From: Haladaptatus paucihalophilus DX253
Lineage (GTDB): Archaea; Halobacteriota; Halobacteria; Halobacteriales; Haladaptataceae
DNA: 64,000 nucleotides
Assembly: GCF_000376445.1 (NCBI RefSeq)
Contig: NZ_AQXI01000002.1
Location: 124,001 to 188,000 of the forward strand
Direction: 5' to 3'
In this document: piece by piece, positions 50,648 through 55,768 of the stretch
How positions within the stretch are numbered: the first letter of the stretch is position 1
Layout of the letters: every line of letters begins with the position of its first letter
Position numbers and translations under genes: made by a program
The notes under the pieces: generated by a model
The model's input: only the letters and a program-made list of their open reading frames with translations
Told to the model about the DNA's origin: nothing
Databases searched by the model: none

Positions 50648-52033
50648 ATGAACCCACCGCGTTTCGTCAACCGCGAGCAAGAGCTCGATACGTTGCAGTC
50701 TCGGTTTCGAAGCGACACCGCCGACCTGATCGTCATCTACGGTCGCCGACGACTCGGGAAGAGCGCACTCGTCCGCGAGGCGATACGAGATACTGACGAC
50801 GCCGTTTACTGGCAGGCAACAGAGGAGACGCCGGAGGTGCAACTCGCTAACTTCGTCGAGACGGCGAGTGAGACGTTTCCCCTCTTAGACGACATCCAAC
50901 GTGACTGGGAGGCCCTGCTGCGTGCGCTCGGTCGGGAGAACGCGGTCGTCGTCCTCGACGAGTTTCCGTATCTCGTCCAGTCGGACGAAGCGCTTCCATC
51001 GAAGATCCAGCGCGTCTGGGATTTACACCTCGAAGACACGGCGATGACGCTCGTCCTCGTCGGATCGTCGATCAGCGTTATGGAGGAGAAGGTCCTCGGC
51101 GGAGGGAGTCCCTTGTACGGTCGGCGCACGGCGGCAATCGACCTCCCGCCGCTCTCGCTGGAGAACGCACGCCGATTCTATCCCACGGACGATCCGGATA
51201 CGATACTTCGATATCGGGGCGTCTTCGGTGGAACACCGTATTACTTGCGAGCACTCACCCCCTCCGCATCGCTTCCTGCAAACATCCAGTCCCACGTGCT
51301 CTCGGAACACGGCGTTCTCCACAACGAGCCGGAGTTCCTGCTCCGGACGGAGTTCGGAATCCGAGAACCGCAGACGTACTACACCATTCTCCGGGCGATA
51401 GCGACCGGAAAGCGTGAAGCAAACGAGATCGCAAACTTCGCGGGCGTCGATTCGAACACGCTCGGATCGTATCTCTCGAAACTTCGTCGCCTCCGATTGG
51501 TCGAGCGAGATATCCCGGTGACGGCCGACCCCAACGCGACACGCAAGAGCCGATATCGACTGAACGAACCGCTCTTCCGGTTCTGGTTTCGGTACGTCTA
51601 CGGTCAGGAAGGAACGCTCGTTCAACTCGGTGATGACGCGTACGAGCGGTCGGTCGAGCCGTCGTTCTCCGATTACATGGGGTCGATGTTCGAGATCATC
51701 TGCCAGGAAGCACTTCCGTCGCTAATTCCGAAGGCGTACCAAGGAATCGGATACTGGTGGCATCGGCAGCACGAACTCGATGTCGTCGGTCTCGGAAGCG
51801 ATGGCACGCTCGTCGCCGGTGAATGTAAGTACACGTCTCGGGAGATGAACGAAGGTGATCTGGCGGACTTAGAGCGGAGTGCGGCGCAGGTTCGCTGGAC
51901 GCCGGAAAACGGCACCGAACCGGCGTACCACTACTGCTGTTTCTGTCGCTCCGGGTTTTCGGACGGACTTCGAGCCACTGCCGACGAGCGTGACGACGTT
52001 TCGCTGTTCACACCCGCCGAAATCGTTTCGTAG
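50648..52033 (+). CDS. Archaeal ATPase with C-terminal DUF234 (nuclease-like) domain
   Basis: 461 residues. STAND/MoxR-like archaeal ATPase: Walker A YGRRRLGKSAL (about residue 31), Walker B VVVLDEFPYL (about 101), then a winged-helix segment (EIANFAGVDSNTLGSYLSKL). The C-terminal DUF234 part has ELDVVGLGSDGTLVAGECKY, whose D and E-x-K spacing matches PD-(D/E)xK nuclease folds. Members are scattered and mobile in archaea and have been discussed as selfish or defence-related, but no function is proven. Codon use looks slightly less GC-rich than neighbours. Confidence 0.85.
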   Translation: MNPPRFVNREQELDTLQSRFRSDTADLIVIYGRRRLGKSALVREAIRDTDDAVYWQATEETPEVQLANFVETASETFPLLDDIQRDWEALLRALGRENAVVVLDEFPYLVQSDEALPSKIQRVWDLHLEDTAMTLVLVGSSISVMEEKVLGGGSPLYGRRTAAIDLPPLSLENARRFYPTDDPDTILRYRGVFGGTPYYLRALTPSASLPANIQSHVLSEHGVLHNEPEFLLRTEFGIREPQTYYTILRAIATGKREANEIANFAGVDSNTLGSYLSKLRRLRLVERDIPVTADPNATRKSRYRLNEPLFRFWFRYVYGQEGTLVQLGDDAYERSVEPSFSDYMGSMFEIICQEALPSLIPKAYQGIGYWWHRQHELDVVGLGSDGTLVAGECKYTSREMNEGDLADLERSAAQVRWTPENGTEPAYHYCCFCRSGFSDGLRATADERDDVSLFTPAEIVS

Positions 52034-53829: not shown

Positions 53830-53938
53830 ACGAACGGGCACCACCCGCCGTCTGTTAGAGGTTGTGGCGGACCGTTCCGATTTCGTCCGTGAGAACGATT
53901 TATTAGTAGCAGATTCATACGATATCGTACATCGAACG

Positions 53939-55768
53939 ATGGCGAAACCACCGGAACTCACCCGCGACAACGAGGGGGCGTGGAAGTTGGCGGGGTCGTT
54001 CAGCAGCGGTCGGTATCAGTTCAGCGTGACGCCCGCCGCGGAGCGACTTCTCCGGGACGAACTCGGATGCGACGAAGGGGATATCGTCCCGTGGAACTGC
54101 TTTCGGGCGCTCGTCTACGCCGGAGACGCGTCGCTCCCCTCCGCGACGGATAGCCCCGTCGAGACCGGAGACGATTTGGCCCGACCGAACGGCGACGTCG
54201 AGATGTTGGACGCGGAGGCCCGCGCGCTCGCCGAGCACCTGCAATCGAAACGGTTCGACGAACGCCAGCGCGAGGCGCTTTCGACCCACGTCGCCGACAC
54301 GAAACTGGACCCGTTGCTCGCCGTCGAAACGCTCGACCGAACCGAGGACTGGGTGGCGGAGACGACCGAATCGCTCGTCCGTGAAGGGGAAACATCGGAT
54401 GAGAGACTCCAATCGGAATCAGACGCGGACTTCGGCGGGGAGAAGTCCGCGTCTACCGCATCGGACCGCCACTCCGCCACGACCGTCCTGCACGTGAGCG
54501 ATTCGTACCTCAAACCCGGAGGGGAGAGCGACGTGGATGGCGTTCACGGTCTCGATGGCTTCGAGAAGGCGGTGGACGTCGCCGTCGGCGAGGCCGTCGA
54601 TGCGGTCGTCCACACCGGGAACCTGTTTTCGAGCGCGACACCCTCGGATGAGGTGAACGCCGCCTGCCGCGAGCGACTGGAGCGACTGGAGCGACGCGAC
54701 ATCCCGTTTTTCGTCGTCGCGGGTCGAAACGAGGCCGAGGATACCGACGCGCTCGATGCGCTGACCGAAACGGCTGGCGTGCGTCGCCTCGGGACCACGC
54801 CGACGGCTATCGACGAGTCGGTCGCCCTGTACGGCATCGATCACCGGCAAGACGTGGGGGCGGGGAATGGGGGGATTCACCTCGAAGACCCCGAAGAACG
54901 CTGTCTCAAACTGTGTTGCGTCCACCAAGCGGTTTCGCCGCCGTACTCGGAGTACGGCGCGGACGTCGAGGCCTACGAACTGGCCATCGAGCACATCGAC
55001 GGCTGGGTCGATGCGTTCCTCTGTGGCGGGACTGACCGCGCGGTCGAATGGGAGGGCGACGACCTCTGTGTGTACTACACCGGAACCACCGACGCCGCGC
55101 GGGTGCGCGACGACGAGGACGAACCCCTCGTGAGTCTGTTCACCGTCCGCGGGAAGTCGTTCGAGCGCGAGACGATTCCGCTCGACGGGTACGACGCGAG
55201 CGCGCGGGAGCGCGAGCGAGCGAGACGCGAACGGGAGAACGGTGACGAGAGGGATGGGTATCCCGGCAGAGAGGTGCGGTCCCGAGAAGCGACGAATCCC
55301 GACGCTCGACCCCTCACCGAGGCCACCGGGTCGCTGGCGACGATGCTCGACGACGCGGGGACGCCCGATTTCGAGGACCGTTCGACGGCGGAACTCGCGG
55401 ACATGTACGCCCTCTTTTCGGACGTCAAAGGGCAGATCGAAACCCTCCGAACCGAGGTTCGTGACGTGCTTTCCTCGCGCGTCGGCGAAGGGCAAGAGGT
55501 TACGGGCTCGTTCGGGTCGGTCAGCGGCCGTCGCCGGACGCGAAAATCGCTCAAGGACTCGGAGACGGTCCTTACGGAGCTCGCCAGACACGGCGTCTCC
55601 CGGGAGGACGTCGTGACCGAACGGGTGGACGGGACGAAGGTCGAGGACGCCATCGAGGAGCGGAACCTCGACATCGACGAATCGCGCCTCTACGATATCA
55701 GCGAGAACGACTACGTTCGGCGGGACGACATCGACCGCGACGCGCTTCGACGGCGGTTCGAGGAGTAG
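53939..55768 (+). CDS. Mre11/SbcD-like protein with degenerate phosphoesterase site and extra domains
   Basis: 609 residues from MAKPPELTRDNEG. An N-terminal domain of about 75 residues and a helical acidic linker precede a metallophosphoesterase-like domain (about residues 180-370). Its motifs can be aligned to Mre11/SbcD, but the metal ligands are lost: VLHVSDSYL (canonical D-x-H), VVHTGNLF (GD becomes GN), FVVAGRNE (GNHD becomes GRNE) and CCVHQ. The C-terminal 110 residues include a TGSFGSVSGRRRTRKSLKDS stretch like phage-associated domains. Probably a non-catalytic DNA- or protein-binding relative. Confidence 0.7.
   Translation: MAKPPELTRDNEGAWKLAGSFSSGRYQFSVTPAAERLLRDELGCDEGDIVPWNCFRALVYAGDASLPSATDSPVETGDDLARPNGDVEMLDAEARALAEHLQSKRFDERQREALSTHVADTKLDPLLAVETLDRTEDWVAETTESLVREGETSDERLQSESDADFGGEKSASTASDRHSATTVLHVSDSYLKPGGESDVDGVHGLDGFEKAVDVAVGEAVDAVVHTGNLFSSATPSDEVNAACRERLERLERRDIPFFVVAGRNEAEDTDALDALTETAGVRRLGTTPTAIDESVALYGIDHRQDVGAGNGGIHLEDPEERCLKLCCVHQAVSPPYSEYGADVEAYELAIEHIDGWVDAFLCGGTDRAVEWEGDDLCVYYTGTTDAARVRDDEDEPLVSLFTVRGKSFERETIPLDGYDASARERERARRERENGDERDGYPGREVRSREATNPDARPLTEATGSLATMLDDAGTPDFEDRSTAELADMYALFSDVKGQIETLRTEVRDVLSSRVGEGQEVTGSFGSVSGRRRTRKSLKDSETVLTELARHGVSREDVVTERVDGTKVEDAIEERNLDIDESRLYDISENDYVRRDDIDRDALRRRFEE

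Follow-up and report, generated by a model that had tools for sequence, protein, structure and literature searches.

The window studied here is a 64,000-nucleotide stretch (G000:C2:124001-188000) of a 4.3-Mb haloarchaeal genome (Haladaptatus). It carries a gene, hereafter P0001, whose reading frame and coordinates had been given correctly in a preliminary description.

53899..53905, + strand: TATA-like box TTTATTA, by direct reading, ~35 nt 5' of ATG 53939
53939..55768, + strand: gene of P0001, the putative pseudoenzyme; 609 aa plus stop, ATG 53939 to TAG 55768

An alternative, longer frame opens at GTG 53705, upstream of this ATG. The N-terminal residues MAKPPEL are common to P0001 and its ortholog in Haladaptatus sp. 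DYF46, and both AACGATTTATTA, which contains the TATA-like box, and the 15 nt nearest the ATG are identical in that strain. Because MAKPPEL and AACGATTTATTA are kept in DYF46, ATG 53939 is the likely start of P0001, and a promoter of its own is probable. The two loci are syntenic, and the shared neighbours are metabolic genes. Neither in the window nor at the DYF46 locus did we find a Rad50-like neighbour, and no DNA-repair gene adjoined P0001 when its neighbourhood was read. The window also encodes (50648-52033, + strand) a 461-aa ATPase that, judged by eye, is of the archaeal ATPase/DUF234 type; its gene lies two genes upstream of that for an LLM oxidoreductase.

P0001 consists of three domains separated by two linkers:

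53939..54328, + strand: N-domain, residues 1-130; fused to other domains in G206, G078, G371, G491 and G035, stand-alone elsewhere
54473..55192, + strand: degenerate Mre11/SbcD-type phosphoesterase domain, residues 179-418, by sequence and Foldseek matches; without capping domain
55319..55765, + strand: C-domain, residues 461-609, of phrog_35116 type (profile match 2.7e-17)
55526..55555, + strand: basic patch GRRRTRKSLK, residues 530-539; consensus RxRRSLRDE over 17 C-domain sequences

The resemblance of the middle domain to Mre11/SbcD, already proposed, is far above chance. Residues 204-393 match the NCBIfam profile Mre11_Halo (NF041030) with E=1.5e-16, although the score of 60.5 bits falls far short of the 550-bit equivalog cut-off; Mre11_Sulfo also matches (E=1.3e-10), and Pfam Metallophos just misses its cut-off (21.4 versus 21.5 bits). 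The host encodes a separate, intact Mre11 (C1:597599), to which P0001 is ~30% identical in the phosphoesterase region (E=3e-12). A Foldseek search of the PDB with a low-confidence AlphaFold model of P0001 (two-sequence alignment, mean pLDDT 51) returned Mre11 structures in all of the top 25 places, with a best E of 1.8e-6. The homology is carried by sequence, and the match of the predicted fold is supportive only. With a homologous core and its motifs in register, the middle domain is, judged by these alignments, a true relative of the Mre11/SbcD-type phosphoesterases by descent.

Is the active site still present? The motif register was set by alignment with 40 intact relatives. In all 40, motif I reads SDTH, GDTH or SDVH, motif II GD, motif III GNH or GSH and motif V G[D/H]xH, and the motif IV His is present in all listed forms. 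The corresponding segments of P0001 are:

54497..54508, + strand: motif I, SDSY (canonical SDTH), S187 D188 S189 Y190; D188 kept, His replaced by Tyr190
54614..54622, + strand: motif II, TGN (canonical TGD), T226 G227 N228; bridging Asp replaced by Asn228
54722..54733, + strand: motif III, GRNE (canonical GNHE; GNH[DE]), G262 R263 N264 E265; Asn replaced by Arg263, catalytic His by Asn264
54920..54928, + strand: motif IV, VHQ (usual form CMHQ or CLHQ), V328 H329 Q330; His329 intact
55025..55036, + strand: motif V, GGTD (canonical G[D/H]xH), G363 G364 T365 D366; both ligand positions gone

In the numbering of P. furiosus Mre11 (PfMre11), D188 and H329 correspond to the ligands D8 and H173, the replaced ligands are H10 (Y190), D49 (N228), N84 (R263), H206 (G364) and H208 (D366), and the catalytic H85 has become N264. 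Of the seven metal ligands, five are thus gone from P0001, as is the catalytic His, while the remaining sequence of the domain is preserved. The earlier statement that all visible ligands are lost was overstated, since D188 and H329 persist; of the four motifs it listed as altered, SDSY, TGN and GRNE are indeed changed, but VHQ is normal, CMHQ or CLHQ being typical of intact relatives, and motif V, whose ligands are lost, was overlooked. By the standard of the motif I-V residues (seven metal ligands and a catalytic His), P0001 is not an Mre11 nuclease. We infer that it lacks nuclease activity and consider it most likely nuclease-dead. D188 and H329 may still bind metal. Together with nearby acidic residues (e.g., D366 and D301), they might even hold a single metal and support a weak or altered phosphodiesterase, and D188 is invariant in the five-member subgroup described below, while H329 is retained in P0001, P0002, G052 and G479. 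Such a cryptic enzyme nevertheless seems quite unlikely: Mre11 needs the bridging Asp and the catalytic His, and P0001 has other residues in place of both; neither motif V ligand survives, G025 retains D188 alone and G078, G371 and G491 retain no ligand.

The ortholog in DYF46 (G008; L004/L098) is 69% identical to P0001 and has identical altered motifs. Scanning genome and viral contigs for exact patterns taken from P0001 alone gave no match, whereas alignment-based patterns recovered one named ortholog. Seven further haloarchaeal proteins proved degenerate, with the following motifs I-V:

G025: ADPR/TGN/GRND/ALPR/GGGV; of the ligands keeps D188 only
G052: SDTL/TGN/GTRE/ACHQ/GGSD
G479: SDSL/TGN/GPRE/CLHR/GGSD
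G078: GKTT/TGH/GPKE/ACGG/GKRA; no metal ligand left
G371: GKAT/TGR/GPKE/ACGD/GKRT; no metal ligand left
G491: GKAT/TGR/GPKE/ACGG/GERT; no metal ligand left
G206: GQAS/TGD/GQRE/AVAD/GGNN; motif II Asp retained

Degenerate proteins of this kind are rare: a search of several hundred haloarchaeal genomes yielded a handful. P0001, P0002, G025, G052 and G479 form a group with support of 100/99 even when all motif columns are removed; D188, TGN (N228) and G363-G364 are invariant within it, and the TGN...GG signature spans four genera in three families. All degenerate members together form one clade (92/81) with the motif columns and two groups without them; a single clade is not rejected (AU p=0.27 and 0.38), and the branches are long.

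The altered residues are thus shared by the DYF46 ortholog and the subgroup, and fixation of the signature in four genera of three families would be expected of a maintained pseudoenzyme. Selection points the same way. In the P0001-DYF46 comparison, a single ortholog pair, dN/dS (NG86) over residues 179-420 is 0.183/0.775, about 0.24; for the same pair it is 0.157/0.441 in the N-domain and 0.210/0.532 in the C-domain, while the two linkers are unconstrained (dN 0.64-0.77). Because the ratio is ~0.24 over the dead domain in this pair, the domain appears to be maintained rather than decaying, as had been proposed. That the gene occurs in only two of nine genus members sampled would suit a relic heading for loss, a very improbable reading given that the frame is intact, the promoter-like box is conserved, dN/dS is well under 1 in all three domains and the altered motifs are fixed across families.

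The domains that accompany the phosphoesterase (PPE) domain vary among relatives. P0001 has the order N-domain, dead PPE without cap, C-domain. G078, G371 and G491 are N+PPE+cap+C proteins, G206 is N+PPE+cap+HhH (an HHH_5 match), G025, G052 and G479 are PPE+C, and G035 is N+C with a zinc-finger-like segment and no PPE. The capping domain is absent from P0001, P0002, G025 and G052 and present in G078, G371 and G206.

The N-domain, described earlier as unknown, is genuine and also occurs separately in other haloarchaea, as proteins of ~155-160 aa. At five of five loci read (L070, L071, L084, L085 and L086), these stand-alone relatives adjoin or lie near a gene that looks DUF309-like from its sequence. 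Neither the N-domain nor the C-domain had a credible match in PDB sequence profile searches.

The C-domain is a member of a large family of haloarchaea that is common on plasmids, and phrog_35116 was defined in viruses. All 17 members compared match phrog_35116, 9 of the 17 weakly match the C-terminal part of the phrog_69 exonuclease and 4 of the 17 weakly match DUF2800; P0001 itself does not reach the DUF2800 cut-off (11 versus 21 bits), and one plasmid C-domain protein is labelled DUF2800 by NCBI. The basic patch noticed in the preliminary description is kept across this family. A role of the C-domain as a Gam-like DNA-end binder was considered and gained no support: no Gam structure emerged by sequence or by Foldseek, the latter with a poor model.

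The same C-domain also follows an N-terminal CxxxxC...H-like finger in a family of ~230-330 aa (L010, L012, L013, L017, L020-L022 and L025), present at near one copy per genome in many haloarchaea. Searches found no such finger protein in G000 and G008, both of which have the N-PPE-C protein. Replacement of the finger protein by P0001 at one locus was rejected: the finger gene sits elsewhere, and some relatives have neither.

Could P0001 serve in conflict with phages or plasmids, its dead Mre11 domain sensing viral DNA ends or viral nuclease inhibitors, or being a decoy for them? The C-domain family, with its plasmid and viral associations, and the patchy distribution of the gene fit this idea, as does the remote relative in G206, which adjoins McrBC-like, DprA-like and other phosphoesterase genes and provides the sole defence-like context. 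However, P0001 and its ortholog sit amid metabolic genes, no PADLOC defence model matched P0001 and a search of phage and viral-contig collections with P0001 returned no match. The anti-phage sensing suggested earlier thus finds no direct support, and we consider a conflict protein unlikely.

The same G206 region (L073:13462-16752, - strand) also encodes, ~3 kb from the degenerate N-PPE-HhH protein and with the McrBC-like and DprA-like genes in the region, a 1096-aa protein that combines an intact Mre11-like phosphoesterase (SDTH/GD/GSHD/LHQ/GHRH) with pentapeptide repeats and whose C-terminus is likely transmembrane.

How does P0001 compare with known systems? With haloarchaeal Mre11 (NF041030) and with archaeal and bacterial Mre11/SbcD it shares phosphoesterase homology and motif register, but it lacks five of the seven ligands, the catalytic His, a capping domain and a Rad50 neighbour, and carries extra N- and C-domains. 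The closest intact relatives are ~400-aa proteins labelled "DNA repair exonuclease" (e.g., on Haloferax alexandrinus pBNX82-4, L095), each the first gene of a four-gene plasmid operon that continues with Rad50-like (AAA_23), NurA and HerA genes. Unlike P0001, which does not keep them all, these proteins retain SDTH, TGD, GNH[DE], MHQ and GDxH; they also carry a cap, belong to operons and have neither the N- nor the C-domain of P0001. The operons were seen on plasmids of Halocatena, Haloferax alexandrinus and Natrinema (L094, L095 and L096), and the Rad50-like protein encoded there also gives scores against PADLOC models, LmuB and JetC among them; HerA-NurA has been reported absent from Haloferax volcanii (PMC7776575).

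The proteins of phrog_35116 and the C-terminal part of DUF2800 nucleases are homologous to the C-domain but have no Mre11-like domain, DUF2800 proteins having a PD-(D/E)XK nuclease instead; DUF2800 genes encode such nucleases in phage DUF2800-gp2.5-polA modules (PMC8093625). A functional precedent comes from the eukaryotic polymerase B-subunits, whose calcineurin-like fold is catalytically inactive (PMC4996933). In POLD2, POLA2 and Dpb2, which are related to archaeal DP1, the inactive fold is kept as a regulatory subunit, but these proteins differ from P0001 in their OB-domain architecture and polymerase partner, and the kinship is at superfamily level only.

Mre11 proteins dimerise via the phosphoesterase domain, and the host genome encodes an intact Mre11, so P0001 might regulate host Mre11-Rad50 as a dominant-negative partner in a hetero-oligomer. 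Against this, P0001 is only ~30% identical to host Mre11 and has no capping domain, and we regard such regulation as improbable. A direct complex of P0001 with Rad50 is likewise doubtful because P0001 has no capping domain and no recognisable Rad50-binding region.

With moderate confidence we place P0001 in the Mre11/SbcD group as a protein that has been maintained, is most likely nuclease-dead and would serve DNA-end or fork metabolism as a scaffold or regulator, binding DNA without catalysis. The separate intact Mre11 of the genome and the DNA-metabolism company of its domains favour this scaffold reading; the DNA-repair role proposed earlier is plausible through homology and domain company and draws nothing from the neighbouring genes. 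The intact ~400-aa Mre11-like proteins encoded in the plasmid Mre11-Rad50-NurA-HerA operons would either be ancestral to P0001 or have a common ancestor with it, the P0001 lineage having gained the N-domain and a phrog_35116-type C-domain. The dead domain would have been retained as a platform for DNA binding and/or dimerisation, and we infer a role at DNA ends or forks in which P0001 would hold, shield or recruit without catalysis.

Nuclease-dead mre11-D56N and mre11-H125N keep most repair functions in yeast, and by this analogy P0001 would work in parallel with the intact host Mre11-Rad50. We take D56N to be the motif II Asp and H125N the motif III His, and P0001 naturally has Asn at both. 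Its changes therefore include the positions of these classic laboratory nuclease-dead alleles. In both mutants endonuclease activity is lost, yet complex formation with Rad50 and Xrs2 persists (PMC2625443).

As far as sequence can tell, P0001 is a real, conserved and degenerate Mre11/SbcD-type protein whose domain company is new, and no dead archaeal Mre11/SbcD paralogue was found in the open-access literature searched. More tentatively, and with less than even confidence, haloarchaea may have evolved a lineage of Mre11 paralogues that are naturally nuclease-dead and joined to a DNA-processing domain from mobile elements. These would bind DNA ends without cutting them and thereby steer repair or protect the ends. 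If true, evolution would have produced a separation-of-function Mre11 in prokaryotes. The graded series, from active through dead but capped and dead and uncapped to domain absent (G035), suggests an evolutionary route to such a scaffold. Confirmation would make haloarchaea a natural setting in which to test the role of an Mre11 fold that does not cut.
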